Virus record (IMG/VR): IMGVR_UViG_3300047547_000112 | Coordinates: 1-38,545 of that record | Source of the DNA: a virus | Length of the DNA stretch: 38,545 nt | Reading direction: 5' to 3' (one strand) | In this document: positions 3,198 through 38,545 of the stretch, one piece after another | How positions within the stretch are numbered: position 1 is the first letter of the stretch | How the letters are laid out: each line of letters opens with the position of its first letter | Position numbers and translations under genes: made by a program | The notes under the pieces: model-generated | Seen by the model: the letters and a program-made list of their open reading frames with translations, nothing else | Told to the model about the DNA's origin: nothing | Database searches by the model: none

Positions 3198-3213
3198 ATA
3201 TTTATGATAAAAC
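3198..3213 (+). promoter_or_regulatory. Candidate late-promoter element upstream of the baseplate operon
   Basis: The sequence ATATTTATGATAAAAC lies just before the ATG at 3215, in the only gap between the reductase terminator and the virion genes. A promoter is expected here, but no TAnnTTTG element is present. The core TATTTAT recurs in the gaps at 21170, 25572 and 25602. The motif may be a late promoter, but in such AT-rich DNA this is only a suggestion. Confidence 0.35.
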
Positions 3214-17525: not shown

Positions 17526-20500
17526 ATGCCTCAGTGTTTAGATTTACAAACAATACTTAACAATGGTGTTCTAAATGAAAACCAAGACGGTACTGTATCG
17601 GTATATATGCCTAACGGTAGTGTGTTGGGACCAGTCACATTAACTGAACAATGTTGTTTGGCTTTAAGTGATACCTATACTTGGGATAGCAATGCACAAG
17701 CATGTATGTGGAATGGCGGGGCTTCATGTAGTATTGAAACCGCTTTTAAGATAACCTTAAACCCTAATGGTAACGAGGCTGTCCTATTTGCGACTGAACC
17801 AAATAAAACATGTGTTCTTAATATTGAATTTGACTACCTTTTCAAAATAAAATGTGAAACGCTTAACAACATTTTGTTGTTGACCCAAAACCCTAACGGA
17901 CCATCCCCATATGCCGATATATTGGCAGAAATTGCGCTAGTACAATCACTCATAGAAACTCAAACAGTAAACTGTGAGGTAATCGCTAACGAAATAAGCT
18001 CAGTTGAATATTCAATTGAAAATACTGATTATTCAGTAGAATATGAGGTACCTAGCGATATAGGTGGTATTGTGAAATCAAACAAAGTCAAGGTCACTTC
18101 AACCAATACAAGTAGTTTTACAAACACAGCTTTTAGTGCTAAAGATATATCTGACAGAGATACAAAAACTATCCCTGCTAAAACGAAACCAATAGATAAT
18201 ACTTTAAAAGGTACACCAGCCCCATTAGTGTCATCACAACAGACACTAGGTGGCCCAACTACGTTAACTTATTGTATCGTTAACCCACAAGGTTTAGCAG
18301 CGTGGGAGACAATTTTAGGTTCACTGAACTATCAACTGTTCTTAAACGGTGACCCAGATTCATATACTGGTGCTGATGTTGAGGCATTGTTGGCACAAAA
18401 CGAAGCTAACGTAAATGCCAACCCACAACAACCACAATTAATATATGCATGTACAACACCTTTTGGGACACTTACCGATTTATTAAACCAATTGGATGAG
18501 TTACAGATTCAACAAGAAAACTGTCAAACGCAGCTGCTTGCTTTATACACACAATTGAGCGATTTACAAGCTCAATTAGGTGCCTTGTTGGGTAGTGGTT
18601 GTACATCACCAGTTAATTTCTTTGAAACCTTAGATGTTTCGTTGAATGTTGATGTTGTTACATCTTCAGGTACAACCGTATCTGTATATGAGGACACAAC
18701 TTTATTCCCACAAATAGGTTTAGGTAACCTTTATAACTATTTGACAGCGACTGGCTCAACTTTAAACACCGCTACAGGGTTTTATGTATGTGGTGGTTTA
18801 GACTGTGAACCAATGTATATAAATTCAACAACGCCAAACACTTGTTTAACTGTGTATAATTCTTTAATGGATGCCCTATACATTGAATCAGGTCTTAGCG
18901 GTACTAGTGGTTATACTGAGTTTTTAACAACATTGCCAAATGAATCATTTGCATCAAATTGGGTACATCATTCAGTTACAATTACTGATGAATCAGTATT
19001 AACAGCGTTAACCAACCAAAATATTACTGTAAGTTTAAATTTGAATCATTCATGTGGTGACATATGTATTTTATTGGATAATCTTAAGATAAATAAAGAA
19101 TGTTCCGTTATAAACGAACAAACATTATTTGTTACTGAATCACCAGGCTTTGAATTAGAGCGAATTCATGATAACAAAAAATCATGGCTTAAGAGTGAAG
19201 CGTATCAAGATAGGTATTTTGAATTAGCAGATGTCGATGATACAAACCCAATTAGAATCACACACTACGATGTGAATGATGAGCGTTTGATAATAAACTC
19301 AAAAGAAATTGACTTGGACATCAACATTGCTGGTGCCATTTTAACTGACATTTGGAACTACGTTCAAAATAATCCATGTATCCTTACTGGTGAGACAAAT
19401 TGCGACCCATGTGTAACATGTGATTATAAGCAGTTCCAAGATGATGCGTATTTTGAATTCCAAGACGATGAATCATATGATTTCATGGACAGCCCATGTG
19501 AAGATGTGTTGAACTTAACAGCCTCAACATGTTGTGGTGATAACCTTATAGACTTTAACGCATTGTTGACAGAACCGTTATCTGGTCTTACAACAATTGA
19601 AGATTTTGAGTATTACTTAACATCTGAATTAATTGACGTAAAAAACAGACAAACGATAAGCGCTTATGCTACGTTAAGAGCTCTTTACGATAGATACGTA
19701 AATAGTAGTTGGTATTGCGACAACCAAAGTGCTGCTTACAATTACCTAACCATGGACCAATTCGCTAATTTATTAGGTGATTATTGGGTTGACATTATTG
19801 AACAAGTAATTCCATCAACAACAATTTGGGGTAGTGTGAAGGTTTATTCAAACACAATATTTGACACACCTAAATTTAAGTATAGAGGTTATTCATCATT
19901 GTTCTGTAATAACCCATTCATAGGTGAACACGTTGTAAGCCCAATTAACGGTACACAAGGGTTTTCAGCTGATGTTGAAACACAAATGGTAACATTAACA
20001 CCATCATTGACATCATCAACAGTAACTGTTTCAACAACATCAGTATGTGATGTGGTTTGGTTAGCACAAATGAACTCTGCAAATGAATTCATAGGTAGTG
20101 TAAGAGTTACCGATTCAACATTCTGTGAAGATGTAACAGATGGTCCTATTAGTGAATGTACATTACAAGTGGATGTTCAAGTTAGTGGATACTCAGCAAC
20201 GGCTTATTTGGTTGGCGCCGCTACGCCAGTAATTTATAGTTGGTCTAACGGTCAATCAGGTCAAACCGCAACATTTGAGACATATGGTGATTACACATTA
20301 ACAGTAACTGATGCTAATTGTTGTGTTGTTGAAGTCAATGTAACGATACCACCAGTTCTAGTAGCTTGTTGGTATACACTCCCAGATAGTCAAACATTCG
20401 TAGATACTGGATTCAGAGGTTTCTCAACACCTGTATATGTTTACAATATGCCGTCAATGGTGGTAAATGGTTCTGAAATAATAACTGATACATCACCAAC

Positions 20501-20831
20501 GTATTTATTGGATTCAAGTAATTTCGATACTGTTTCAACACCTGCTGGTTTAACTTATACTAACTTCGTTACGTTTATGAACCAAGCTTTTGCTCAAATT
20601 GGTGCAACTAATTACACAGCTCAATTGGCCCTTAATGGTCAAACAGCTGGTGAAAACCCAAATCAAGGTTTCTATATTATTAGACCTCTTGATGATACAT
20701 TTACAATTCAAGTAAGTGAAACAAACACTGGTGACTACTACTTTACTGAAAATGACATGTTAGGTGGTGGTACTTACTTTGACGTTGATTGTGACGGAAT
20801 AACAGTTGAAAATGGTGTTGTAGTAGAATGA
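17526..20831 (+). CDS. Large Cys-rich virion/fibre protein with coiled coil and an SprB-like domain
   Basis: This 1101-residue protein is unrecognised as a whole. The N-terminus has a Cys motif (EQCCLALSDTYTWD, then CMW) related to the C-terminal Cys region of the preceding protein. Residues about 315-360 form a coiled coil (LLNQLDELQIQQENCQTQLL, followed by LYTQLSDLQAQLGALL), suggesting oligomerisation. A further Cys cluster lies near residues 625-670 (CDPCVTCDYKQF, TASTCCGDN). Residues about 875-945 contain an SprB/PKD-like unit (YSWSNGQSGQTATFETYGDY, then LTVTDANCC). The size, repeats and position before the SHAEG fibre suggest a fibre or fibre connector. The stop TGA overlaps the next ATG (ATGA). 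Confidence 0.8.
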   Translation: MPQCLDLQTILNNGVLNENQDGTVSVYMPNGSVLGPVTLTEQCCLALSDTYTWDSNAQACMWNGGASCSIETAFKITLNPNGNEAVLFATEPNKTCVLNIEFDYLFKIKCETLNNILLLTQNPNGPSPYADILAEIALVQSLIETQTVNCEVIANEISSVEYSIENTDYSVEYEVPSDIGGIVKSNKVKVTSTNTSSFTNTAFSAKDISDRDTKTIPAKTKPIDNTLKGTPAPLVSSQQTLGGPTTLTYCIVNPQGLAAWETILGSLNYQLFLNGDPDSYTGADVEALLAQNEANVNANPQQPQLIYACTTPFGTLTDLLNQLDELQIQQENCQTQLLALYTQLSDLQAQLGALLGSGCTSPVNFFETLDVSLNVDVVTSSGTTVSVYEDTTLFPQIGLGNLYNYLTATGSTLNTATGFYVCGGLDCEPMYINSTTPNTCLTVYNSLMDALYIESGLSGTSGYTEFLTTLPNESFASNWVHHSVTITDESVLTALTNQNITVSLNLNHSCGDICILLDNLKINKECSVINEQTLFVTESPGFELERIHDNKKSWLKSEAYQDRYFELADVDDTNPIRITHYDVNDERLIINSKEIDLDINIAGAILTDIWNYVQNNPCILTGETNCDPCVTCDYKQFQDDAYFEFQDDESYDFMDSPCEDVLNLTASTCCGDNLIDFNALLTEPLSGLTTIEDFEYYLTSELIDVKNRQTISAYATLRALYDRYVNSSWYCDNQSAAYNYLTMDQFANLLGDYWVDIIEQVIPSTTIWGSVKVYSNTIFDTPKFKYRGYSSLFCNNPFIGEHVVSPINGTQGFSADVETQMVTLTPSLTSSTVTVSTTSVCDVVWLAQMNSANEFIGSVRVTDSTFCEDVTDGPISECTLQVDVQVSGYSATAYLVGAATPVIYSWSNGQSGQTATFETYGDYTLTVTDANCCVVEVNVTIPPVLVACWYTLPDSQTFVDTGFRGFSTPVYVYNMPSMVVNGSEIITDTSPTYLLDSSNFDTVSTPAGLTYTNFVTFMNQAFAQIGATNYTAQLALNGQTAGENPNQGFYIIRPLDDTFTIQVSETNTGDYYFTENDMLGGGTYFDVDCDGITVENGVVVE

Positions 20832-21166
20832 GGATAAAAAATAGAGATAGAGTTGAAAGAGGTAAACTTAAGAGTTTTGACGACCTACCAGAATCTAAAA
20901 AAAACATTTTTTTGGATATTAAAAATGAGGTTTCAAGATTCTTCAGTCACCTTGGTGATGAACCAGTATATGTGTACGGTAGTCATCTATGGGGAAATTG
21001 GGATGAAGAATCAGACTATGACGTTTACGTTAAATCAAGATTTATTGAAAATGTGTCCGAATTTTACCAAAAACTGGAATTTTTTAAATCTTACTTGGAA
21101 ACAAAATTAAAAGTTAAGGTTGATATAGTTATGATGAGAGATGACATAGGTATTTTAATACCATAA
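20828..21166 (+). CDS. Small nucleotidyltransferase-fold protein (MNT type, DNA polymerase beta superfamily)
   Basis: This 112-residue protein carries the complete catalytic signature of the minimal nucleotidyltransferase fold. G51-S52 starts GSHLWG, D63 and D65 lie in ESDYDVYV, and the third Asp is D99 (KVDIVMM). Spacing matches the GSxxxG...SDxDxxV pattern exactly, so activity is plausible; known relatives transfer AMP or other nucleotides to proteins, RNA or small molecules. It overlaps the preceding fibre gene by four bases (ATGA) and lies just before the SHAEG fibre. Its location among late tail genes is unusual, and no HEPN or other toxin partner is visible beside it. Its target is unknown. 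Confidence 0.85.
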   Translation: MRIKNRDRVERGKLKSFDDLPESKKNIFLDIKNEVSRFFSHLGDEPVYVYGSHLWGNWDEESDYDVYVKSRFIENVSEFYQKLEFFKSYLETKLKVKVDIVMMRDDIGILIP

Positions 21167-21168
21167 AT

Positions 21169-21185
21169 ATATTTATATAAAAACA
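21169..21185 (+). promoter_or_regulatory. Candidate late-promoter element upstream of the SHAEG fibre
   Basis: The 24-base gap before the ATG at 21191 contains ATATTTATATAAAAAC. The core TATTTAT (21170-21176) matches the gaps before 3215 and 25614. The stretch from 21164 is also part of a 14-base AT palindrome (ATAAATATATTTAT). No TAnnTTTG host-type element is present. Support is only recurrence and position. Confidence 0.3.
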
Positions 21186-21190
21186 AAACA

Positions 21191-23890
21191 ATGAAATTAA
21201 CCGATAGAACAATATTAACAAACTTAAATGTAACCGATTTAATCCACGTAGTGGTAACTGGTGATACAAGCCAAAACCCAGCTGGGTCTTCATTTAAAAC
21301 ACCATTATCTAGCGTTGTGTCTTTATTAGGGCAACAATCAGGTAGTTATTGGACCTCTGGTTCAACGTGGAGTGGAACAAACTATCCTATCAAGGCTAAT
21401 AATAACACTGGTTTGGATGCAACTGGTAATTATGCAATTGCGATGGGTTCTGGTACAACAGCTAGCGGTAATTATTCATTCGCTAGTGGTGTTGGAACTG
21501 TAGCCGCATACAATTCTTCTCATGCTGAAGGTAGATATACAACAACTGGTGGTTTAGCTTCCCATGCTGAAGGTTCAACCACTATTGCTGATGGTGACTT
21601 CTCACATGCTGAGGGTGAACTAACATATGCATCATATATTGCATCACACGCTGAGGGTACAAACACATCAGCAACAGGTGAAGGTTCTCACTCTGAAGGT
21701 TCTGGTACAACAGCTGTTAGTACAGCATCTCACGCAGAAGGTTATTTAAGTGTTGCTTTAGGCAATTATTCACACGCTGAAGGTAGACAAACAACTGCAT
21801 CAGGCGTTACATCACATTCCGAAGGTTGGTCATCACAAGCTAATGGTATTGCGTCACATGCTGAAGGTTATCAAACTAAAGCTAATGGTGTGCAATCGCA
21901 CGCTGAAGGTTACCAAACAACAGCATTGGGTAATTACTCACACTCTGAAGGGTTTTTGACCAAAGCACAGGGGTTACAATCACACGCCGAAGGTTCTTCA
22001 AATATAGCCAGTGGTGATACATCACACGTTGAGGGTTATCTAACAACAGCATTTGGATATGCATCACATACCGAAGGTCAATCAACAACTGCATCAGGCG
22101 CCACATCTCACTCAGAAGGCTCTGGCACAACAACATTAGGTCAAGCAGCACACTCTGAAGGTTACCAAACTATAGCATCGGCAACAACATCTCACGCTGA
22201 AGGTTATCAAACAACAGCTATTGGTTTGGCATCACACGCTGAGGGTCAATTAACAAAAGCTAGCGGTGCAACATCACACTCAGAAGGTTATGCAACAACT
22301 GCTGGTGGTGTTTATTCACATGCTGAAGGTTATTTCACAACAGCCAATGGTGATTATTCCCACAGTCAAGGTGACAGAACCATTGCAAACGGAATTTATT
22401 CACACGCTGAAGGTTCGTTAACAACTTCGACTGGTGGTTTTGGCGCACATGCTGAGGGCTACAATACGACAGCAAGTGGTAACTACTCACACGCTGAAGG
22501 TGCTTACACAATCTCATCAAACAGTGCGTCACACTCAGAGGGTTTATATACAACAGCATCTGCTCAAGGTGCCCACGCTGAAGGTTATACAACGACAGCA
22601 TCAACGCTTTATGCGCACTCAGAAGGTGCTTATACATTAGCTTATGGTACAGCAGCACACGCTGAAGGTAGTAATACATCAGCGGGTTATTTTGCACACT
22701 CAGAAGGTGCGTATACAAAGGCTATTGGTAACTACTCACATACTGAAGGGTATTTCACAACCGCTAATAATGATTTTTCACATGCCGAAGGTACTGGAAC
22801 AACAGCTAGCGGTGTAGGTTCACACTCACAAGGTCAATTAACTATTGCCTCAGGTCAAGTTTCACACGCTGAGGGTTCTGGTACAACCGCTAGTGGTATA
22901 GCATCACATGCTCAAGGTACTTATACAATAGCATCTGGTAATTATTCTAATGCTGAGGGTAGAGGTTCTTTATCATCTGGTGTTTACTCACATGCTGAAG
23001 GTTATTTAACCACCTCTAATGGTATTTCATCACATGCTGAAGGTGACCAAACAAGGGCTAGTGGTTTAACATCACATGCTGAAGGTTATCTAACTATTGC
23101 TGGTGGTATTCAAGCTCACTCAGAGGGTGCATATACAACCGCCACTGGTGATTATTCACACGCTGAGGGTTATGGTTCTAGAGCGTTAGGTATATACTCA
23201 CACGCTGAAGGTAGAGGTACTTTAGCTAATGATTACGCACACGCTGAGGGACACGATTCAACAGCATCTGGTACTAACTCACATGCTGAGGGTTCTTCAA
23301 CCCTTGCATCATCCGACTATGGCGCACATGCTGAGGGTTATGGGTCAACTGCGGCTGGTTCTTATTCACACGCTGAAGGTGGTTTTACAACAACATTAGC
23401 CAATGGTTGTCACACAGAAGGTTTGTATACAATTGCCATGGCAAATGGAGCACACGCTGAAGGTGGTTATACAACATCTTCGGGTACTTATTCACACTCT
23501 GAAGGTTCTGGTACTACAGCATCAGGTGCGTACTCACATGCACAAAACTTTGCAAATAAAGCAACTGGTATTGCATCACATGCTGAAGGTAGTTATACTA
23601 CCGCTAGCGGTGTTGGCGCTCACGCTGGTGGTTTAACAAATATTGCGTCTGGTAGCTATAGCTTTGTACACGGTACAGGTTCAACAGCAAGTGGGTATGC
23701 TACAATAGTATTGGGTACAGACATTACTGGTACAATACCACAAGCGGTTTATGTGTCACCATTGATTTTAGCTAGATTAACAACGGCTCAAAGAACAGCA
23801 TTAACAGCAACCAACGGTATGATGGTATATGATACTGATGAAAATAAATTTAAAGGCTACGAAAACGGAGCTTGGGTTAACTTGATATAA
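21191..23890 (+). CDS. Tail fibre with about 50 tandem SHAEG (YadA-head-like) repeats
   Basis: The 899-residue protein has an N-terminal attachment region (MKLTDRTILTNLNVTDLIHV), a very long repeat region and a fibre-type C-terminus. Residues 110 to about 830 consist of about 50 tandem units of 13-15, mostly 14, residues: SH(A/S)EG-x-x-T-x-A-x-G-x-x. This is the period and Gly/His layout of YadA-head left-handed beta-roll repeats, which form trimers; similar SHAEG runs are known in other phage fibres. The C-terminus (RLTTAQRTALTATNGMMVYD, then KFKGYENGAWVNL) is a common end module of Bacteroidota phage and surface proteins. It probably forms a long trimeric receptor-binding fibre. Nearly every repeat carries one His and one Glu. 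Confidence 0.92.
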   Translation: MKLTDRTILTNLNVTDLIHVVVTGDTSQNPAGSSFKTPLSSVVSLLGQQSGSYWTSGSTWSGTNYPIKANNNTGLDATGNYAIAMGSGTTASGNYSFASGVGTVAAYNSSHAEGRYTTTGGLASHAEGSTTIADGDFSHAEGELTYASYIASHAEGTNTSATGEGSHSEGSGTTAVSTASHAEGYLSVALGNYSHAEGRQTTASGVTSHSEGWSSQANGIASHAEGYQTKANGVQSHAEGYQTTALGNYSHSEGFLTKAQGLQSHAEGSSNIASGDTSHVEGYLTTAFGYASHTEGQSTTASGATSHSEGSGTTTLGQAAHSEGYQTIASATTSHAEGYQTTAIGLASHAEGQLTKASGATSHSEGYATTAGGVYSHAEGYFTTANGDYSHSQGDRTIANGIYSHAEGSLTTSTGGFGAHAEGYNTTASGNYSHAEGAYTISSNSASHSEGLYTTASAQGAHAEGYTTTASTLYAHSEGAYTLAYGTAAHAEGSNTSAGYFAHSEGAYTKAIGNYSHTEGYFTTANNDFSHAEGTGTTASGVGSHSQGQLTIASGQVSHAEGSGTTASGIASHAQGTYTIASGNYSNAEGRGSLSSGVYSHAEGYLTTSNGISSHAEGDQTRASGLTSHAEGYLTIAGGIQAHSEGAYTTATGDYSHAEGYGSRALGIYSHAEGRGTLANDYAHAEGHDSTASGTNSHAEGSSTLASSDYGAHAEGYGSTAAGSYSHAEGGFTTTLANGCHTEGLYTIAMANGAHAEGGYTTSSGTYSHSEGSGTTASGAYSHAQNFANKATGIASHAEGSYTTASGVGAHAGGLTNIASGSYSFVHGTGSTASGYATIVLGTDITGTIPQAVYVSPLILARLTTAQRTALTATNGMMVYDTDENKFKGYENGAWVNLI
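21518..23700 (+). repeat. Degenerate tandem repeat array of about 42 bp (14-codon) units
   Basis: The DNA encoding the SHAEG repeats is a tandem array with a mean unit of 42 bp. Units of 39 and 45 bp also occur (around residues 415, 500, 680 and 710). Units share the codons for S/A-H-A/S-E-G, while the other nine positions vary. The array creates long shadow frames on both strands. I counted 51 units by eye, and the last ones (AHAGGLTN, SFVHGTGS) are diverged. Confidence 0.9.
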
Positions 23891-23891
23891 C

Positions 23892-24134
23892 ATGCCACAA
23901 TTATTAAAGAAAATAGAGGGTAGTGTTGATTCAGGTATTTCTTCAAACACATATTTTGTTAAAGAAGTGTCTGGGCTCATTCAACAAGAGGATTATATTG
24001 ATGTATCCTCTTTTGTTGCTTACCTACAAAATTTTTCTCAATGTGAGTTCACCAGTGGTTTGTCAAAACCACAGCTATTTGGTTTGAGTAATAGCTTTAA
24101 CAAACAAGTTCAAACATTAAACATAAGTTACTAA
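23892..24134 (+). CDS. Small hypothetical protein of the fibre block
   Basis: This 80-residue protein is unrecognised. It begins one base after the fibre stop (TAACATG) and ends one base before the next gene, so it is almost certainly translated from the fibre transcript. The sequence is mixed helical/polar (LLKKIEGSVDSGISSNTYF, SFVAYLQNFSQCEFTSGL) without membrane segments or catalytic motifs. Small genes just downstream of phage fibres often encode chaperones or fibre-tip/attachment proteins, but nothing in the sequence allows a choice. Confidence 0.7.
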   Translation: MPQLLKKIEGSVDSGISSNTYFVKEVSGLIQQEDYIDVSSFVAYLQNFSQCEFTSGLSKPQLFGLSNSFNKQVQTLNISY

Positions 24135-25569: not shown

Positions 25570-25609
25570 GATATTTATAACTAAAATAAAGGTAAAACAG
25601 ATATTTATA
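25570..25609 (+). promoter_or_regulatory. Tandem candidate late-promoter elements
   Basis: The gap before the ATG at 25614 contains GATATTTATA twice, at 25570-25579 and 25600-25609, exactly 30 bases apart. The core TATTTAT is the same as before 3215 and 21191. The downstream copy ends five bases before the start codon. The exact spacing and short gap support a regulatory role, but no experiment or host consensus does. Confidence 0.35.
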
Positions 25610-25613
25610 CGAT

Positions 25614-27764
25614 ATGAGTTACATAATTAACAGTACAAACCCCTTCGTTAGCGTAAAATTGACTGAAAAAGGTAGAGAACAGTTGGCATTAGGCCGACTT
25701 AATTTTTCATTTTGGGCAGTTGGCGATTCCGAAATCAACTATGATAGAGAAGCTATCGTTGACGCTAACCCATTAGACGTTACCTTATCGGCCACAAGTA
25801 AAGTTTTGAGGCCAGTTGATAGACAACCTAACATAAAATATTTCATATATCCAAGTATTTCAACATCACCATATCAAAGCATGACAAATGCCAATATGAA
25901 TGTTGTTAAAGCTGTGGTGAATAATGAAGCAGTTGAAAGAGGGTTTTTTGATAATCAATTGACAGCTTTCACAACAAATTTAAGTTCAGATTTAACCCCA
26001 TATCAAGAAACTATTTCAAACACTTATTTAAGTGGTGGTACAATCTTGACAATGACTGGTACAACAATACAAGCTGGTAATTTAGTGCTGTTAAAACCAT
26101 CTAACTCTGTATTGGGTAACGTAGCTATGAGCTCAACAACTGAAGCAATACCTAATCTTTGGTTCCAAATACAATCAGTATCTGGTAACCAATATACGGT
26201 AGATAGAAACCTACCAGTTCTTTCAGGTGTTGGTAACTCAACAAATATTATAGTTTACCGTCAAGGCGAAGTTTATGACACAATATCAACAGGTAACACA
26301 ACCGCATATTGGGATTCAGGCACCTTATTATTCAATTCAAACGTAAACATTACATGTCATGACGTTCCAGTATGGAACATGAATAATGTATGGTGTGAGA
26401 ATATGGCTGGTATGACAGCCGATACAGCTTACGAAGACTATACTAAGTTTGGTTCTTACCCTTATTTAGGTACCAAAGCGCCATATCTTGAATACTGGTG
26501 TACAAGCACTGGTTCAACGTCTTATAATTGTAACGGTCCAGGTATTAGTTACCCAGATGATGTTCATAAAGCTATTTCAATCATACACTACACCAACAAT
26601 GCAATTTCTAACCTATATGGTGAGTTTTTCTATGTTGACGCGACAAACAACAAGTATGTTCAAGTACACATGCCTAATTTGATGTATCATAGAGCTGGTT
26701 ATTCAACTGGTACTGGTACTGTGATGGGTATGACATTTATTGCTTCTGGAGACATACAAACTATTGGTAGTAGCGAAATACAATACATTGATTTGGTTGA
26801 ACACCCAGATTTCATTTCTTCGGCTAACACAACATCACTTGTTGTTGGTAAAGTTTTACCACAATATAAGATGATTATTATTGATAACGAGGAAATAGTT
26901 GCCGCTATGTCATACAAAGCCAACAGAAACTGGACCCTTCCAGAATTGGCAGCAAACATCATAGCACCTAGCGGTGCGACAACTAGCGGTATTCTAGGTG
27001 TGAATGAAACGATTTATTTGACATACACATTAGATAATTCTGGTAGCACAACAGGTTTGACAAGTAGTTTACCATGTCAAAATTATGTTAAGGTCACAAA
27101 TACAACTTCATCATCTAAAGACATTGCTTTTAGAATAAACGAAACTGACTTGTTACCATATATGCGTAAAATAGAAGACTTATCGTATGACGGTTATGGT
27201 TGGTACGCACATAAATTCAAGTTACTTTATCAAGTTGTAAGCGGAGATACTGTACGCCCTGACCCAAGCGCTTGGTTACAATATGATTACACAACAACTG
27301 GTTTGACTGGTACCGCTGGTGCTACTATTGACCCATTTGCTTTGGAGAATCAAACCCCAGGTTCACAGGACTGTGGTGTAACAATTGGATTTGTGTTAAA
27401 TGACCAGATTTATTCAGCATCAACATTGTTTAACTTGTATCCAGTGTTGAATATGGCGCCAACTAACCAACCAACTTATCTACAGTTTGGTGATGAAAGA
27501 TTCTTCTACGGTAATATTGAAACATACATAGGTGCTACAATATACAAAACAATATTTGACTTAAGTGTTAATGGTTCACAGTTTGACATCACAACAAACC
27601 CAACTAGAAGCACAGACCCAAACACCAACCCAGCAAATCTAAGAATTACGGATGTTGGTATTTATGATAACGCATATAATTTGGTTTGTATAGGTAAATT
27701 GAGTAAACCAGTAATACTTCAAACAAACAACACAATAATGCTTGAATTAAGCATGGATTTTTAA
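25614..27764 (+). CDS. Fibre-type virion protein, paralogue A
   Basis: The 716-residue protein has an N-terminal module, NPFVSVKLTEKGREQLALG ... FSFWAVGDSEINYDRE, that is shared with the next gene (LTLTAKLTPFGRQKLVST ... SFSLGDSDANYN). It also shares the closing module (RITDVGIYDNAYNLVCIGKL). The shared ends suggest two proteins that attach to the same structure, separated by unrelated central domains. The middle is Ser/Thr/Gly-rich and beta-like. The start follows two TATTTAT elements. It is probably a tail-fibre or adhesin component that faces the cell surface. No enzyme motif is evident. Confidence 0.8.
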   Translation: MSYIINSTNPFVSVKLTEKGREQLALGRLNFSFWAVGDSEINYDREAIVDANPLDVTLSATSKVLRPVDRQPNIKYFIYPSISTSPYQSMTNANMNVVKAVVNNEAVERGFFDNQLTAFTTNLSSDLTPYQETISNTYLSGGTILTMTGTTIQAGNLVLLKPSNSVLGNVAMSSTTEAIPNLWFQIQSVSGNQYTVDRNLPVLSGVGNSTNIIVYRQGEVYDTISTGNTTAYWDSGTLLFNSNVNITCHDVPVWNMNNVWCENMAGMTADTAYEDYTKFGSYPYLGTKAPYLEYWCTSTGSTSYNCNGPGISYPDDVHKAISIIHYTNNAISNLYGEFFYVDATNNKYVQVHMPNLMYHRAGYSTGTGTVMGMTFIASGDIQTIGSSEIQYIDLVEHPDFISSANTTSLVVGKVLPQYKMIIIDNEEIVAAMSYKANRNWTLPELAANIIAPSGATTSGILGVNETIYLTYTLDNSGSTTGLTSSLPCQNYVKVTNTTSSSKDIAFRINETDLLPYMRKIEDLSYDGYGWYAHKFKLLYQVVSGDTVRPDPSAWLQYDYTTTGLTGTAGATIDPFALENQTPGSQDCGVTIGFVLNDQIYSASTLFNLYPVLNMAPTNQPTYLQFGDERFFYGNIETYIGATIYKTIFDLSVNGSQFDITTNPTRSTDPNTNPANLRITDVGIYDNAYNLVCIGKLSKPVILQTNNTIMLELSMDF

Positions 27765-29690: not shown

Positions 29691-29721
29691 TTGCAAATAC
29701 GGAAGTTTTAGCGTATATTTG
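29691..29721 (+). promoter_or_regulatory. Bacteroidota-type promoter for the primase gene
   Basis: TTG at 29691-29693, a 20-base spacer and TATATTTG at 29714-29721 match the Bacteroidota -33/-7 consensus. The primase ATG lies only five bases after the -7 element, so the transcript is predicted to be leaderless or almost so. TTGCAAATA and TATTTGCAA (29691-29699, 29716-29724) form an inverted repeat that overlaps both promoter boxes. Confidence 0.85.
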
Positions 29722-29725
29722 CAAT

Positions 29726-30688
29726 ATGGCTCACTTTTCAATATCTGATGTACTAGAGAGTTTCCTTGGTGAACATAGGAAACACAATGAAGATACGGGG
29801 CAAATCTCTTTTGATTGCCCCGCTTGTTCATTAGATAAAGGTATGCCAGATGGTGATGGTAAAGGTAACCTAGAAGTCAATTATAATTTAGGTAAATTCA
29901 GGTGCTGGGTTTGTTCTGAAACAAACCATATGCATGGTAACGTAACTCGTTTAATTAAAAATTACGGGACCCAAACCAATCTAAGGGATTATCTTTTATT
30001 GAGACCAGACCAAGCGGCTTCAGTATCGACTGAAGAACGTGAAGAAATAGTGGTTACCCTACCTGTCGGTTTTAAAGAACTATCTAAATGCACATCTAAG
30101 GACTACAAGTCTGACTTAGCTAAAAAATATCTATATGATAGGGGTATTACTGATGAAATCATTAAAGACTACCGTATAGGGTATACCATACGTGGAAAAT
30201 ACTTTAATAGGATAATAATACCGTCCTATGATGCTAATGGAAAGCTGAATTACTTTGTTGGTAGATGGTTTGTTAAAGAAAAACCACTCAATAAGTACCT
30301 AAATCCAGACGCTGAGAAGTCTGAAATCATCTTCAATGAAGGTAAAATCAATTTTGACACAACAATATATCTTGTTGAAGGGGCTACTGACCATATTGTG
30401 ATACCTAATTCTATACCACTACTAGGAAAATACATTTATCCGAAGCTTTTAGAACTACTTCACGACAATGCTATGGCGTATATCGTCATAGTTTTGGACG
30501 ATGACGCATGGGAAGACGCTGTTAGGTTGTATAAAGAACTTAATTTTGGTGATTTAAGAGGTCGAATAAGGATAGTTAGGTGTCCTGAAGGGTATGACCC
30601 GTCAAAAGTTAATGAAAAATTGGGTAGTAAAGGCGTTGCCAAGCTATTAATGAGTGCTAGACAATTATCAGAACGAGAATTGTATTAA
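29726..30688 (+). CDS. DNA primase: zinc ribbon plus Toprim domain
   Basis: This 320-residue protein has the primase arrangement. A zinc ribbon uses C31-C34 (FDCPACS) and C60-C63 (RCWVCS). It is followed by a linker and the Toprim core with E218-G219 (VEGATD) and D258-D260 (VLDDDAWEDA), the acidic residues that bind Mg2+. It should make RNA primers for lagging-strand synthesis, acting with a helicase that is not in this window. The domain order resembles T7/DnaG-type primases more than T4 gp61 by eye. It starts directly after a host-type promoter. Its stop overlaps the stop of the convergent minus-strand acetyltransferase. Confidence 0.9.
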   Translation: MAHFSISDVLESFLGEHRKHNEDTGQISFDCPACSLDKGMPDGDGKGNLEVNYNLGKFRCWVCSETNHMHGNVTRLIKNYGTQTNLRDYLLLRPDQAASVSTEEREEIVVTLPVGFKELSKCTSKDYKSDLAKKYLYDRGITDEIIKDYRIGYTIRGKYFNRIIIPSYDANGKLNYFVGRWFVKEKPLNKYLNPDAEKSEIIFNEGKINFDTTIYLVEGATDHIVIPNSIPLLGKYIYPKLLELLHDNAMAYIVIVLDDDAWEDAVRLYKELNFGDLRGRIRIVRCPEGYDPSKVNEKLGSKGVAKLLMSARQLSERELY

Positions 30689-31104
30689 CTCTTGAAGTTA
30701 TTTCTAGTAATTACAAGTGTTCTTAAGTAATGATTTCCAGGCATAAGCTTATTTGTAACCTCCACACCACCTATTTTTTTCCAGAAAGGACACGCAGTAT
30801 CAAAACATTGTAGAATAATGTTCTCTATTTTAGGTAATTTGGAAAATAAGAACTCTATACCTAGTGTTCCGTAGCCTTTACCTTGTTCTGAAGCGTTATA
30901 ACCGCCTTTAAGATATATACTGTTAGGGTAAGATTTACCGTCAATAGTGACGTTACCTAATTCACCAATACCAAAAGTAACAATTGGGTTGTTGTCTAGG
31001 TATATGGTATTGGGACCATTTTTATTTAAACTGCCATCATTGAAACGTAAACTAGAAAATTTACTTAATTCTTCTGTTAACCTTTGTTTGATAAAATCTT
31101 TCAT
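30685..31104 (-). CDS. GNAT-family N-acetyltransferase
   Basis: This is the only minus-strand gene in the window. From the Met at 31104 it encodes 139 residues; the frame is open further upstream, but that part crosses the nuclease promoter and start and is unlikely to be used. The acetyl-CoA pyrophosphate loop is visible as EQGKGYGTLGIEFLF (Q74, G75, G77, G79), and motif B as CPFWKKIGGVEV (105-116). GNAT proteins transfer acetyl groups to amines of proteins or small molecules; the target is unknown. The stop codon overlaps that of the convergent primase gene (TTAA at 30685-30688). A minus-strand promoter is predicted at 31130-31161, overlapping the nuclease promoter. Confidence 0.78.
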   Translation of the reverse strand: MKDFIKQRLTEELSKFSSLRFNDGSLNKNGPNTIYLDNNPIVTFGIGELGNVTIDGKSYPNSIYLKGGYNASEQGKGYGTLGIEFLFSKLPKIENIILQCFDTACPFWKKIGGVEVTNKLMPGNHYLRTLVITRNNFKS

Positions 31105-31126
31105 TGTGTCATTTCTAGATAAATAC

Positions 31127-31157
31127 TTGCAAATATGAACAAAATGTCGTATATTTG
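31127..31157 (+). promoter_or_regulatory. Bacteroidota-type promoter for the PD-(D/E)XK nuclease gene
   Basis: TTG at 31127-31129, a 20-base spacer and TATATTTG at 31150-31157. The ATG at 31163 lies five bases after the -7 element, so the message should be nearly leaderless. Its boxes and start closely match those of the primase promoter. The arms TTGCAAATAT (31127-31136) and ATATTTGCAA (31151-31160) are a perfect inverted repeat, which overlaps a promoter for the opposite strand. Confidence 0.85.
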
Positions 31158-31161
31158 CAAA
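31130..31161 (-). promoter_or_regulatory. Candidate minus-strand promoter for the GNAT gene
   Basis: Read on the minus strand, TTTG (31161-31158), a 20-base spacer and CATATTTG (31137-31130) fit the host consensus with one mismatch. The GNAT start codon is 25 bases downstream. The element shares its arms with the plus-strand promoter: each strand's -7 box abuts the other's -33 box. Confidence 0.55.
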
Positions 31162-31162
31162 T

Positions 31163-31945
31163 ATGGCTAAGATACAAAAATGGGTAGGTCCAGTATACCT
31201 AGAACCCATTCAACATAAATATCACCATAGAGAAACAGGTAAGATTTACAAATCAGTAACTACCACCCTGACCTCTATTGAACCGCATTTCGATGCGGAA
31301 GCTGTTTCTTTGGCCATAACCAAGCAACTTGATTCTGTAAAACAAGAGCGATACATTGGTATGAACCAACAACAAATCTTGGATTATTGGCAAATGCTTA
31401 ATGATGAAGCCAACATATACGGTACCAAGGTTCACGATATTGTTGAACGTTATCTTTTAGCTAATAAGTGGTATTTCCCAGAGGATGATGAAGTTGGTTT
31501 ATTTGAACAGAAAGTCATTAAAGGGTATGATAACTTAAAAATCGAAGAGGGTGTCACCATGTGGCCTGAACGCATATTGTTTTCTGAAGAATATGAATTG
31601 GCTGGTACCTCAGACTTGATTATCGACATAGACGATGTTTTCTTTGATGTAGCCGACTATAAGACCAACAGAGTGTTCAATTTCTATAACCCATACGGTT
31701 ATCAGACTCTACACAAACCATTTGACCACTTGCAAGCGTGTCAATGGTCAATATACACACTTCAGTTAAGTGTTTATGCTTACATGTATGAACTTGAGTT
31801 TCCTAAGCGTAAATGCCGTCAAATCTATGTTTTATATTGGAACAAAGAAACTGAGTGTTTTGAAAAAATACAGATAATGTATCTTAAGCATGAGGCTAAA
31901 AAGCTAATTGAGATGCACCATTATAACGTAATGAAAAATGCATAA
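31163..31945 (+). CDS. PD-(D/E)XK nuclease, RecB/exonuclease type
   Basis: The 260-residue protein carries the RecB-like nuclease motifs in order. H91 and E95 lie in GTKVHDIVERYLL, D151 in AGTSDLIIDID, D165-Y-K167 in VADYKTNR, and Q201-Y205 in LQLSVYAYMYE. These form the Mg2+-dependent active site of nucleases that degrade DNA ends, produce single strands for recombination or process replication intermediates. It lies between the primase and gp47/gp46 recombination genes, which fits. It is driven by its own promoter with an almost leaderless start. The next small gene overlaps its stop (ATGCATAA). Confidence 0.87.
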   Translation: MAKIQKWVGPVYLEPIQHKYHHRETGKIYKSVTTTLTSIEPHFDAEAVSLAITKQLDSVKQERYIGMNQQQILDYWQMLNDEANIYGTKVHDIVERYLLANKWYFPEDDEVGLFEQKVIKGYDNLKIEEGVTMWPERILFSEEYELAGTSDLIIDIDDVFFDVADYKTNRVFNFYNPYGYQTLHKPFDHLQACQWSIYTLQLSVYAYMYELEFPKRKCRQIYVLYWNKETECFEKIQIMYLKHEAKKLIEMHHYNVMKNA

Positions 31946-33397: not shown

Positions 33398-33428
33398 TTG
33401 CATTTTCACCGATTATTTCGTATATTTG
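33398..33428 (+). promoter_or_regulatory. Bacteroidota-type promoter for the gp47-gp46 operon
   Basis: TTG at 33398-33400, a 20-base spacer and TATATTTG at 33421-33428. The gp47 ATG lies 15 bases downstream of the -7 box, leaving a leader of perhaps 10 bases. Confidence 0.85.
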
Positions 33429-34844: not shown

Positions 34845-37201
34845 GCGAAATAGCTACAAAAACATACATACCACCAACAGCTAAGGTTAAGGTTAAGTGG
34901 GAAGATAGACCTGAAAATTATTCTAAAGAGAATAAGAATTTAATCAAAAATCATTTTGCTAAAAAGTACGGTATAAACAAAAACAATATTACCGTATCTT
35001 ATATTCCAGTTAAGCTTAATAGTAAAGGCGAATTGGTGGAGATATCAGGTGCGAACATTGATAATATCATGGATTTGAATTATCAAAGAGCCCTTATGAA
35101 AGAGCTTATTGAACGAGATGGTAAAAACATTGACTTTGACAGAATCATTGCCTTGGACAACAAGGTGAACGCTGAGTTAACGATTGATATGACGGTATCA
35201 CAGCACAAGAAATGGTCAATCAAATGGTTGATGCTAGATAACTTCTTGTGTTTTGGTGAGCAAAACTATATACCTTTTAGCAAACTACAAGGATTAACTG
35301 TTGTGAATTCAGTACCAGCTAATCAAGGTGGTAAAACAACACTCACCATTGATGCTATCAAATTTTTACTTCATGGTACCACAACCAAAACCGATAAAAA
35401 CGAAGAGGTCTTCAACGATTTTAGTGGTAAAAATGAATTGGTTGTTAGGGGCATGATTGATATTGAGGGAGATGAAATAATCATCGAACGTAAAATGAAG
35501 CGTTCGGCGTCAAAAAGTGGTGGTTGGACTGTAACCAATAAGGTTAACTACTACGAGCTATTACCAGATGGTGAAGAAAAGGCTATGAATGAAGAAGACG
35601 CTAAACGAACAACGATTAAAATCAAAGAAACTGTTGGTAGTGAAAAAGATTTTGAACTATTGGTTTTGGCAACTGAAAATAATTTGGATGACCTCATCGG
35701 ATTAACAACCACTGAATCTGGTAAGATATTAACTAGGTTGATTGGTTTAGAAGTCCTTGAAATGAAGGAAGAAATTTCCCGTAAAATGTATAATGAGTTT
35801 GCTAAGAAAAAGAAAGCAAACGACTATGACGTTATTACGTTGACGAATGAAATCGAAGAAGACGAAGCTAAGATTGAACTTCAAGTTGAGATATCTGTCA
35901 TACTAAACGAAAAAATTGAAGCGAACAAAAAAAGAATTACGGAGTTAAATGAACTAAACGATTCACTACTTAACTCAAAAGAAAAGGTTGACATCACTAT
36001 TAGTGCTATGAACCCGTCCAAGCTTCAAGAAGAGATTAATGTCTTGACCATAAAGGGTAAAGACACGAAAGACCGTATGACCACTTTGAATGACGCGATA
36101 ATATCAATGGGTGAGATACACTTTGATGAGGACCGACATTATGGGTTAACAAAATTGATATCAAAGACAACAAGCGATAAGGCAGTTAAAGAAGCCGAGA
36201 TTAAAAGACTTAAAAGAGTTGTCACTGATTTAATAGCTGGCGGTATATGTCAATCATGTCATAGAAAATTAGACGATGTTGACAACACTGAGCATATAAA
36301 TAAACACAATGAAGATATAAAAACTTTAGAGGTTGAATTGAATGCTATTGAGGCGTTGTTAGTGGAGTATGGTGAGGAATTAACCGCGCTAGAGGCGGTA
36401 AAGGTTCAGATAGATAAAAAGAGCCGAATGGAGTTGGATAAAGATAGATTGGAAGTTGAAATCGGTAGCTTGAGAAATCAAGTCATCGCTAAAATGGCTG
36501 ATTTAAAGAAATACAACGCGAATCTTGACGCTATCGAACATAACCGCCAGATAGACATCCAAGTCTCTAAGGTTAAGACGGATATCGCGGTTGAGGAACA
36601 TACCAAAACCGAAACCATAACCAAAATCGAGCGCAATGCCAATGAATTGAAAAACCTAAGAGAAGGGGTTGTATTCAAGACAAAGATGATTGAAACCTTG
36701 AAAAAAGAGGAAGAAATTGATAAAATCTTTAGGGTCTACATAGACCTAGTTGGTAAAAAGGGTATCAGCAAATTGGTGTTGAGGTCTGTTCTACCAATAA
36801 TCAATGGCGAACTACAAAGATTATTGGAAGATGTAACAGATTTCGAAGTCGAGATATTTATAGATGATAAGAATGATGTTCGTTTTTACCTTAATAAAGG
36901 TAACAGTACGAAATACCTTAAATCTGGTAGTGGTCTTGAAAAGACGGCTGCTAGTTTGGCTTTAAGGGCTGTTTTGGGCAAATTATCAACTCTACCTATG
37001 CCAAACTTTATCACTTTCGATGAAGTTTTGGGTAAAGTGGCTGCTGAGAATATTGATAAACTAAAAGAGCTTTTTGACAAGATTAAGGACATGTACGACA
37101 TCGTGTTTTTGATAACCCATTACGATACCGTTAAAGATTGGGCTACTAACGTATTGACAGTAAATAAGGTAAATGACATTTCAAAATTGTCGATAAAATA
37201 G
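34841..37201 (+). CDS. Recombination ATPase subunit, gp46/Rad50/SbcC-like, with N-terminal extension
   Basis: This is a 786-residue SMC/Rad50-type ATPase. Residues 1-125 form an extension not seen in T4 gp46, which starts near its ATPase domain. The ATPase begins at WSIKWLMLDNFLCFGEQ. The P-loop is P159-ANQGGKTT, with Pro and Gln at two usual Gly positions. Coiled-coil arms surround a zinc hook, C470-Q-S-C473. The signature region is SGSGLEKTAASLAL (695-708) and Walker B is ITFDEVLG (D727/E728). With gp47 it should open and process DNA ends for recombination. It overlaps the preceding small gene in an ATGA. The stop TAG sits in the loop of a 17-bp hairpin. Confidence 0.92.
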   Translation: MSEIATKTYIPPTAKVKVKWEDRPENYSKENKNLIKNHFAKKYGINKNNITVSYIPVKLNSKGELVEISGANIDNIMDLNYQRALMKELIERDGKNIDFDRIIALDNKVNAELTIDMTVSQHKKWSIKWLMLDNFLCFGEQNYIPFSKLQGLTVVNSVPANQGGKTTLTIDAIKFLLHGTTTKTDKNEEVFNDFSGKNELVVRGMIDIEGDEIIIERKMKRSASKSGGWTVTNKVNYYELLPDGEEKAMNEEDAKRTTIKIKETVGSEKDFELLVLATENNLDDLIGLTTTESGKILTRLIGLEVLEMKEEISRKMYNEFAKKKKANDYDVITLTNEIEEDEAKIELQVEISVILNEKIEANKKRITELNELNDSLLNSKEKVDITISAMNPSKLQEEINVLTIKGKDTKDRMTTLNDAIISMGEIHFDEDRHYGLTKLISKTTSDKAVKEAEIKRLKRVVTDLIAGGICQSCHRKLDDVDNTEHINKHNEDIKTLEVELNAIEALLVEYGEELTALEAVKVQIDKKSRMELDKDRLEVEIGSLRNQVIAKMADLKKYNANLDAIEHNRQIDIQVSKVKTDIAVEEHTKTETITKIERNANELKNLREGVVFKTKMIETLKKEEEIDKIFRVYIDLVGKKGISKLVLRSVLPIINGELQRLLEDVTDFEVEIFIDDKNDVRFYLNKGNSTKYLKSGSGLEKTAASLALRAVLGKLSTLPMPNFITFDEVLGKVAAENIDKLKELFDKIKDMYDIVFLITHYDTVKDWATNVLTVNKVNDISKLSIK

Positions 37202-37221
37202 TTGTTTTATCGACAATTTTG
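37182..37221 (+). terminator. 17-bp perfect hairpin over the gp46 stop codon
   Basis: The arms CAAAATTGTCGATAAAA (37182-37198) and TTTTATCGACAATTTTG (37205-37221) are fully complementary around TAGTTG. The loop holds the TAG stop (37199-37201) and the TTG box of the next promoter (37202-37204), so arm 2 plus three bases form the promoter spacer. A terminator is likely, but it lacks a clean downstream U tract, so an operator is also possible. Confidence 0.75.
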
Positions 37222-37232
37222 GAGTATTTTTG
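37202..37232 (+). promoter_or_regulatory. Bacteroidota-type promoter for the 37249 gene
   Basis: TTG at 37202-37204, a 20-base spacer and TATTTTTG at 37225-37232, followed by the ATG at 37249. It overlaps the gp46 hairpin. Confidence 0.75.
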
Positions 37233-37248
37233 TATAAAAAGATAACTT

Positions 37249-37758
37249 ATGAGATTTAGAAATTATTGTGTGATTATCATGGGTAACACACAAGATGTAA
37301 ACGATGAGATTAGAAAAGTTGCAGAAATGGAGCCAAATTTCTTGGAAACCAAAGGTATTACCATTGCAACCTTTACCGCTTTTGTGTCACCATCTGAATT
37401 GAAAGAATGGTTTAAAGAACACGGCAGAAACGTCATAGTATTCGATTTGGATGAAAATTCTTCTGGGGTACACTTTATAAAGCCAGAAATTCAAAAAGGA
37501 TTATTTGGGTTTACAGAGCTCATTGATTTAGATGAGATGAATGAACAATTCTTAGAAAGTGTGGAAAAATCCATTGATAAGTGTGATGAGATAATTGAGA
37601 ACATCTCTGGCGACACCATCACCAATCTATTGAGTGAAAAATCAATAGAAAAAATGGATAAAAAACAAAAAGAAGACCTTCTTAATAAGTTGATTGAGAA
37701 TGGGTTAGAAAAACTAACAGATAGTGATAGAAAACTACTTCCTTTGTTGACAAAGTAG
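37249..37758 (+). CDS. Hypothetical protein, unknown
   Basis: The 169-residue protein is not recognised. The N-terminal 85 residues are an alpha/beta-looking region (RNYCVIIMGNTQDVNDEIRK, KGITIATFTAFVSPSELKEW, RNVIVFDLDENSSGVHFIKP), and the remainder is a helix-rich, Lys/Glu-rich tail (SVEKSIDKCDEIIENISGD, KMDKKQKEDLLNKLIENGLE). It has its own promoter and sits between gp46 and the sigma factor, so it might have a regulatory function, but no DNA-binding motif is visible. Another Met start (MGNTQD, residue 11) is possible. Confidence 0.78.
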   Translation: MRFRNYCVIIMGNTQDVNDEIRKVAEMEPNFLETKGITIATFTAFVSPSELKEWFKEHGRNVIVFDLDENSSGVHFIKPEIQKGLFGFTELIDLDEMNEQFLESVEKSIDKCDEIIENISGDTITNLLSEKSIEKMDKKQKEDLLNKLIENGLEKLTDSDRKLLPLLTK

Positions 37759-37768: not shown

Positions 37769-37798
37769 TTGACTTTTTATGTTTTTTTAGTATATTTG
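37769..37798 (+). promoter_or_regulatory. Bacteroidota-type promoter for the sigma-factor gene
   Basis: TTG at 37769-37771, a 19-base spacer and TATATTTG at 37791-37798. The sigma-factor ATG is 44 bases downstream of the -7 box, the longest predicted leader of the group. Confidence 0.85.
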
Positions 37799-37842: not shown

Positions 37843-38545
37843 ATGAGTAAAAAATTTGTGAATTTCGATACTGACGATGTTGTATCAAAGTATTTCAAGG
37901 ACATCAGAAAGTCAGTTGTTTTAGCTCCGTTTGAAGAAAACGAATTGGCGAAAAAAATAAAAGCTGGGGATAAAAAAGCTTTGGATAAATTAATCAATGC
38001 AAACCTAAAGTTTGTGATTTCAATAGCCAAAGAATATCAAGGAAAAGGATTACCGTTAGCCGATTTGATAAATGACGGTAATCATGGATTAATAAAAGCT
38101 GCGCATAGATTTGACCATCGTAAAGGGTTTAAGTTTATTTCGTATGCTGTGTGGTGGATTCGTCAATCAATATTGTTGAGCTTATCGGAAAACGCTAGAC
38201 TTGTTCGCTTACCTGCAAATGTGATACATAAAATCTCTAAACTAAGTAAAGAAATAGCTAAGTTTGAATCTCAAAATGAAAGAGAACCAATTTTTGGTGA
38301 AATCGTTGATGATGATAATGAAGCAATATCAATGGTCATGTACCCTAAGCACACGTCACTTAATGAAGTGATTAATGAAGAGGGTGATGAAATGATTGAA
38401 TTGATTTTATCAGAAGAACCAGAAGAAACTAAATATGAAGTGACTGATGAGGTAAAGACTAAAATCAATGAAGCGCTTTCTATTTTAAGTGACAGAGAAA
38501 GAGAAATAATTGAGTGTTATTTTGGGATAAATATCGAATCGGAAC
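37843..38545 (+). CDS. Phage-encoded sigma-70-family RNA polymerase sigma factor, 3' partial
   Basis: The ATG at 37843 begins a frame open to the window end (234 residues seen). It is a primary-type sigma factor without region 1.1. Region 2 is almost host-like: LINANLKFVISIAKEYQGKG, LADLINDGNHGLIKAAHRFD, KGFKFISYAVWWIRQSI (residues 50-110), including the -10/-7-recognition and strand-opening residues. Region 3 starts with ARLVRLPANVIHKISKL, and region 4 begins with ALSILSDREREIIECYFGI. The gene has a host-type promoter. The protein is likely to redirect host RNA polymerase to phage genes, perhaps the late TATTTAT-type promoters; the target is inference. The end of region 4 lies outside the window. 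Confidence 0.93.
   Translation, partial: MSKKFVNFDTDDVVSKYFKDIRKSVVLAPFEENELAKKIKAGDKKALDKLINANLKFVISIAKEYQGKGLPLADLINDGNHGLIKAAHRFDHRKGFKFISYAVWWIRQSILLSLSENARLVRLPANVIHKISKLSKEIAKFESQNEREPIFGEIVDDDNEAISMVMYPKHTSLNEVINEEGDEMIELILSEEPEETKYEVTDEVKTKINEALSILSDREREIIECYFGINIESE

Follow-up and report, generated by a model that had tools for sequence, protein, structure and literature searches.

A palindrome lies between a nuclease gene and a divergently oriented acetyltransferase-like gene in the DNA analysed here, an IMG/VR virus contig of 38,545 bases (the window). A first-pass annotation read this palindrome as a bidirectional promoter carrying the elements of one promoter class on both strands, over which two polymerases would compete, or else as the binding site of a dimeric regulator. 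The question that the locus raises is whether the symmetry is what promotes transcription both ways. Our comparison with related phages suggests that it is not: two-way promotion is very likely, but the conserved minus-strand box lies outside the palindrome and belongs to a different class.

The phage and its relatives

By gene content the phage is a T4-like myovirus. The window encodes a ribonucleotide reductase, the baseplate proteins gp25 and gp6, a tape measure, a tube protein and a RuvC-like resolvase, together with a primase, the PD-(D/E)XK nuclease, SbcD/SbcC and a sigma-70 family factor. Relatives of the nuclease are present on 51 viral contigs, the largest of 368 kb, and those contigs that span the head region encode a T4-type gp23 and an S77 prohead protease, the latter found in six relatives. 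Searches against named phages gave no nucleotide match for the window region and a single weak tblastn hit for the nuclease. The host is probably a Flavobacterium-like member of the Bacteroidetes, because both the promoter type and a cultured relative, Flavobacterium phage immuto_2-6A, point there. The gene starts behind all distance counts come from a home-made gene caller, and the features discussed below are collected in Table 1.

Table 1. Promoter elements and genes considered in this work (window positions unless a contig is named)
Feature	Position	Strand	Remark
Class L box, baseplate gp25-like gene	3198..3204	+	upstream of the gene
Class L box, large structural-region gene (21191-23890)	21169..21175	+	upstream of the gene
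Tandem class L boxes (25571-25577, 25601-25607), gene 25614-27764	25571..25607	+	both kept in several orthologues
Class A primase promoter, TTGCAAATAC...TATATTTG	29691..29721	+	4 nt before the ATG; palindrome control (no divergent gene)
GNAT-like acetyltransferase gene, 139 aa, N-terminal leader MKDFIKQRLTEEL	30685..31104	-	
Leader peptide codons (MKDFIKQRLTEEL)	31066..31104	-	presumed T4 capsid-targeting-like
Candidate late (class L) box of the divergent gene, GTATTTAT	31119..31126	-	15 nt from ATG; just left of the palindrome
Composite junction ATAAATAC-TTG	31119..31129		late box abutting the -33 element; from the divergent versus codirectional comparison
Class A (Bacteroidetes sigma-A type) nuclease promoter: -33 TTG 31127-31129, N20, -7 TATATTTG 31150-31157	31127..31157	+	
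Palindrome arms TTGCAAATAT / ATATTTGCAA, 14-nt gap	31127..31160		private to the window phage
Putative TTG-N20-CATATTTG of the first-pass annotation	31130..31160	-	at most a weak, unconserved extra promoter
PD-(D/E)XK exonuclease gene (phrog_298)	31163..31945	+	probably leaderless mRNA
Class A promoter, SbcD-like gene	33398..33428	+	sequence upstream of the gene
Class A promoter, 19-nt spacer, sigma-70-like gene	37769..37798	+	upstream of the gene
Phage sigma-70 family factor gene (phrog_351, Sigma70_r2)	37843..38545	+	cut by the window end
242-aa sigma region-2-like protein	G013 66040-66768; G010 201972-202700; G021 19277-20005; G023 101308-102036		near gp23

A host-type promoter precedes the nuclease

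The rightward half of the first-pass annotation is borne out, both in its assignment of the gene to the PD-(D/E)XK nucleases and in its promoter. On the plus strand, TTG-N20-TATATTTG has zero mismatches to the Bacteroidetes sigma-A consensus, and a promoter of this type, which we call class A (TTG-N18-22-TAnnTTTG), precedes the nuclease in 35 of 42 distinct loci, with a 20-nt spacer in 34. Class A shares its -33 TTG and -7 TAnnTTTG exactly with the TTTG / TAnnTTTG promoters of Bacteroidetes sigma-A (sigma ABfr; PMC6847099, PMC9723704). Upstream of genes, class A copies are strongly biased toward the sense strand (58 sense versus 4 antisense in contig G013, 71 versus 4 in G023). Orthologue comparisons also assign a class A promoter to the gene at 37279. 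As a separate observation, a long perfect hairpin (37182-37232) stands straight after the SbcC stop codon and overlaps a class A promoter; no relative shows anything comparable at this gene.

In Flavobacterium johnsoniae and F. psychrophilum the -7 box occupies -12 to -5 and transcription starts 4-5 nt beyond it (PMC6847099, PMC9723704). Applied to the window, this geometry (4-5 nt after the G; PMC6847099) predicts that the nuclease transcript starts at 31162-31163. The nuclease start codon lies 4-5 nt past TTTG in the window and its nearest relatives, and since this distance equals the mapped Flavobacterium geometry, the mRNA is probably leaderless. Over all class A promoters, 42 have their TTTG 3-6 nt from the start codon, none at 7-11 nt and 85 at 12-21 nt, and others reach 40 nt. 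The empty 7-11-nt zone is consistent with a start 4-5 nt after TTTG, and fits a rule by which an mRNA either is leaderless or has a leader of at least ~8 nt. Class A copies with an ATG at 3-6 nt amount to 42 of 220, about one fifth, compared to 5.5% leaderless among the mapped mRNAs of F. psychrophilum (PMC9723704). The primase provides a further conserved leaderless arrangement, its promoter standing exactly 4 nt before the ATG in most relatives, where protein identity is 60-73% (29691-29726 in the window).

The palindrome is private to one phage

The inverted repeat is exactly where the first-pass annotation placed it. Its arms match over an exact 10 bp, and widening them to 14 nt leaves a 93% match over 31123-31164. 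The exact pattern has 0 occurrences in dinucleotide shuffles; the relevant null, though, counts every 10-bp inverted repeat whose gap is at most 40, of which the window has 5 against a mean of 2.6 in dinucleotide shuffles (range 0-6). As a bare inverted repeat, the palindrome is not above chance. It is the sole case among 212 class A promoters, drawn from the window and ten related contigs, in which all 10 arm positions match; random re-pairing of arms gives an expectation of 0.06.

If symmetry served bidirectionality, the palindrome would be expected to follow divergent genes. Divergent promoters instead average 3.53 arm matches of 10, fewer than the 4.08 of codirectional promoters, and the second-best palindrome of the 212 (9/10) belongs to the primase promoter, whose upstream gene is codirectional and which has the left arm as well. 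We therefore conclude that symmetry is not tied to bidirectionality. The left half, whose conservation the first-pass annotation had proposed as a check, is not preserved: relatives keep TTG(C), whereas AAATAT is variable.

These comparisons weigh on a palindromic promoter of a single class, active both ways, at which two identical polymerases compete for one site. The exact arms would suit it, symmetry-based bidirectional promoters are known in E. coli (PMC12825309), and the minus-strand TTG-N20-CATATTTG does exist, one mismatch away from TAnnTTTG. That mismatch, however, places C at -12, where T is otherwise invariant in 35 of 35 orthologous class A promoters, and no divergent nuclease relative apart from the near-identical contig L002 has a class A promoter on the minus strand. 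With the near-identical palindrome at the codirectional primase promoter also against it, we judge this explanation improbable, and by the measure of sequence conservation a promoter of the same class is not found on both strands. An operator for a dimeric phage regulator is very unlikely too: a symmetric 34-bp site over the promoter would fit, as would the 9/10 copy at the primase, but the palindrome is not conserved at the nuclease in relatives, 7 of the 212 promoters have 8 or more matching arm positions where 4.1 would be expected, and the shared letters are explained by overlap with promoter elements.

Arm re-pairing, the divergent versus codirectional comparison and conservation together lead us to reject the palindrome as functional symmetry. 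On these comparisons it is a peculiarity or accident of one phage, not the source of bidirectionality, and is best read as a chance elaboration: the -33 region TTGCAAATA and the -7 region TATTTGCAA are by coincidence reverse complements in this phage.

A candidate late box faces the divergent gene

The conserved minus-strand element is of another kind. Upstream of all genes, the top strand-directional word is ATATTTA, with 324 sense and 68 antisense copies, and we call promoters built on this box class L. Its distance to the ATG is 3-6 nt in 41 cases, 7-11 nt in 17 and 12-21 nt in 239, with the mode at 15-16 nt. The distribution is thus two-peaked (5-6 nt and 12-21 nt), parallel to that of class A, as expected if each box sets a start site. 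Class L has no strongly conserved position upstream, a -35 partner included, and the sequence downstream is A-rich. The window locus carries the minority variant GTATTTA, which shows no overall strand bias (35 sense, 37 antisense). Its sense copies nevertheless fall at the modal distances in 20 of 35 cases, the same share as for ATATTTA (215/394) and unlike TTATTTA (14/101). All 15 divergent nuclease relatives listed have (G/A/C)TATTTA on the minus strand, in most cases 14-15 nt from the start codon of the divergent gene. In the window, we predict a minus-strand start at about 31113-31114.

What class L precedes gives an indication of its timing. In orthologue comparisons it stands before baseplate and tail genes, whereas class A stands before the primase and the nuclease; the box lies 15-16 nt upstream of gp25 orthologues in seven of nine relatives. 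In phage immuto_2-6A a class L box is found upstream of the terminase, gp20, sheath and tube genes, and none directly upstream of gp23. Because the boxes precede baseplate and tail orthologues and the structural genes of immuto_2-6A, we read class L as a candidate late promoter of this phage group, its timing being assigned from gene content. Our literature search, largely confined to papers outside subscription, found no late promoter for Bacteroidetes T4-like phages.

Two side observations concern promoter arrangement. The tandem late boxes of the gene at 25614-27764, about 30 bp apart, are conserved (25571-25614 and orthologues), most relatives having the tandem arrangement. In immuto_2-6A (L151), at ~18000-24000, small genes have a repeated promoter-like block, TATATTTAGgTATCAATAATTAAAAC, ~28 nt before the ATG, which is unlike class A.

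The two boxes are joined at a fixed offset

The first-pass annotation had noted that the boxes of the two strands abut, and they do. The class L box, for its part, directly adjoins the -33 TTG of the plus-strand promoter. TAAATA, its plus-strand reading, followed by TTG within two bases occurs at all 14 divergent nuclease loci and at none of the 21 codirectional ones (Fisher 4e-10), and genome-wide TAAATA stands just upstream of class A in 15 of 40 divergent versus 12 of 222 codirectional cases (p = 2e-7), both values overstating independence because the relatives are phylogenetically linked. At one exact offset, the genome-wide contrast is 13 of 40 divergent versus 3 of 222 codirectional class A promoters. 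The fixed-offset junction also recurs at pairs unrelated to the nuclease (G021 11443, adjoining gp23; G010 14940, 147697 and 248778), and this recurrence at several unrelated gene pairs is evidence independent of shared ancestry. Short divergent regions most often join a class A with a class L promoter (19); those with class A on both sides are nearly absent (1).

The stretch immediately before TTG is A-rich in class A promoters, and TAAATAC before the -33 TTG might be a mere AT-rich upstream element whose TATTTAT reading is fortuitous. We find this highly unlikely, as such an element would not be expected to be confined to divergent nuclease promoters, to keep an exact offset mainly where genes diverge, or to stand at a distance from the divergent ATG that matches the class L mode. 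From the conservation, strand direction, spacing and association with divergent genes of the two boxes we infer promoter activity, and the region very probably promotes in both directions.

The divergent gene and its leader

The first-pass annotation of the minus-strand gene as GNAT holds as far as acetyltransferase-like: a Pfam search with the 139-aa protein gave no match, whereas the hits shown by Foldseek for its model, which is of modest confidence (pLDDT 60), are essentially all acetyltransferases, with a best E of 2.5e-4. A search of IMG/VR brought up no relative of the protein other than on a near-identical contig. The divergent genes of relatives differ in sequence, and four of them (L015, L021, L031, L032) reach the Pfam GNAT (PF00583) cut-off. 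Looking across the divergent neighbours of the nuclease, those of L003, L004, L022 and L040 as well as these four are acetyltransferase-like or have GNAT-like glycine motifs.

Nearly all divergent genes at the nuclease locus have in common an N-terminal leader, MKxFIKxxLREaL. Among 404 class L genes 26 match the strict pattern, against none of 268 class A genes and 6 of the 1250 remaining genes; the proteins that bear it have very different bodies, and several of their genes lie close to gp23. We take the leader to be similar in its letters to the T4 capsid-targeting sequence. By analogy, we hypothesize that it is a candidate capsid-targeting sequence of packaged or injected proteins, which fits the late expression proposed for leader genes. 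As proposed for the leader genes, those for the T4 internal proteins IPI-III and Alt, which have a capsid-targeting sequence, are late genes with a short common N-terminal leader (PMC9958956). The leader of the present phage group differs in being MKxFIKxxLREaL. T4 leaders are cut by the prohead protease, and an S77 prohead protease is encoded in relatives here as well.

Phage sigma factors

Sigma-70 region 2 proteins are encoded in 14 of 14 records tested. A sigma-A-like protein follows the SbcC gene, and a 242-aa one, the putative late sigma factor, is encoded near gp23 in contigs that reach the head genes. The latter is conserved: about 100 relatives occur in IMG/VR, and immuto_2-6A encodes another; the protein scanned matches Sigma70_r2 at E 2e-4, below the Pfam cut-off. 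We considered this protein as a homologue of gp55, the late sigma factor of T4, and found no support in any of the searches made: single-sequence comparison gave none, profile comparison a probability of 2%, PDB sequence search and PHROGs none, and AlphaFold2 followed by Foldseek, on a low-confidence model, no structural match to gp55.

Discussion

Taken together, these observations make it likely, in our view, that the 58 bp between the divergent genes are a class A and a class L promoter fused back to back into a rigid early/middle-late unit. Rightward, the host-type sigma-A promoter TTG-N20-TAnnTTTG would give a practically leaderless nuclease mRNA, transcribed among DNA-metabolism genes at early or middle times. 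Leftward, the (G/A/C)TATTTAT box would drive a late gene for the GNAT-like protein, whose leader hints at packaging into the head. The late box is set one base from the -33 element, a fixed spacing that puts the predicted starts about 50 bp apart, so that a polymerase on one promoter should keep another off the second. The mutual exclusion of the first-pass annotation thus survives in the sense that overlapping promoters could interfere, but conservation lends no support to identical competing sites. We would expect a time-ordered hand-over, early rightward and late leftward, rather than symmetric competition.

The bidirectional promoters of E. coli are alike in their divergent, overlapping starts and potential polymerase competition, but they arise from the symmetry of one class, whereas the window junction joins two classes at fixed spacing (PMC12825309). 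In E. coli, such competition is of consequence only if one of the two directions is highly active (PMC12825309).

Comparison with T4 shows both likeness and difference on the late side. Class L resembles T4 late promoters in its layout: one AT box of 8 bp, placed roughly a helical turn upstream of the start (a predicted one in class L) and lacking a -35 element, precedes structural genes and is followed by AT-rich sequence. The T4 late box is TATAAATA, whereas the sense strand of class L reads (A/G)TATTTAT(A), the inverse reading. T4 late promoters use the sigma factor gp55 with the clamp, have an AT-rich downstream segment and lack a -35 element (PMC2988020). Bidirectional promoters and phage late boxes are both known already; in the literature searched, we found no description of the inverted late motif or of the rigid fused module.

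Tentatively, and with slightly more doubt than confidence, we propose that the late promoter of a large and mostly uncultured T4-like Bacteroidetes phage group is the inverted-looking TATTTAT, that a standard bidirectional module locks this box one base from a host-type -33 element, and that the change from early to late transcription flips the direction in which this junction is read, turning on exchangeable genes for packaged effectors. If this is true, promoters of widespread large Bacteroidetes phages could be mapped in silico as host-type or late-type, and the cultured relative immuto_2-6A would offer a simple test. The compact junction, with its two promoters in fixed geometry, would suit the study of polymerase interference and of the early-late switch. 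The leader-bearing late genes, several of them acetyltransferase-like, would then be candidates for proteins injected into the host with the phage DNA.
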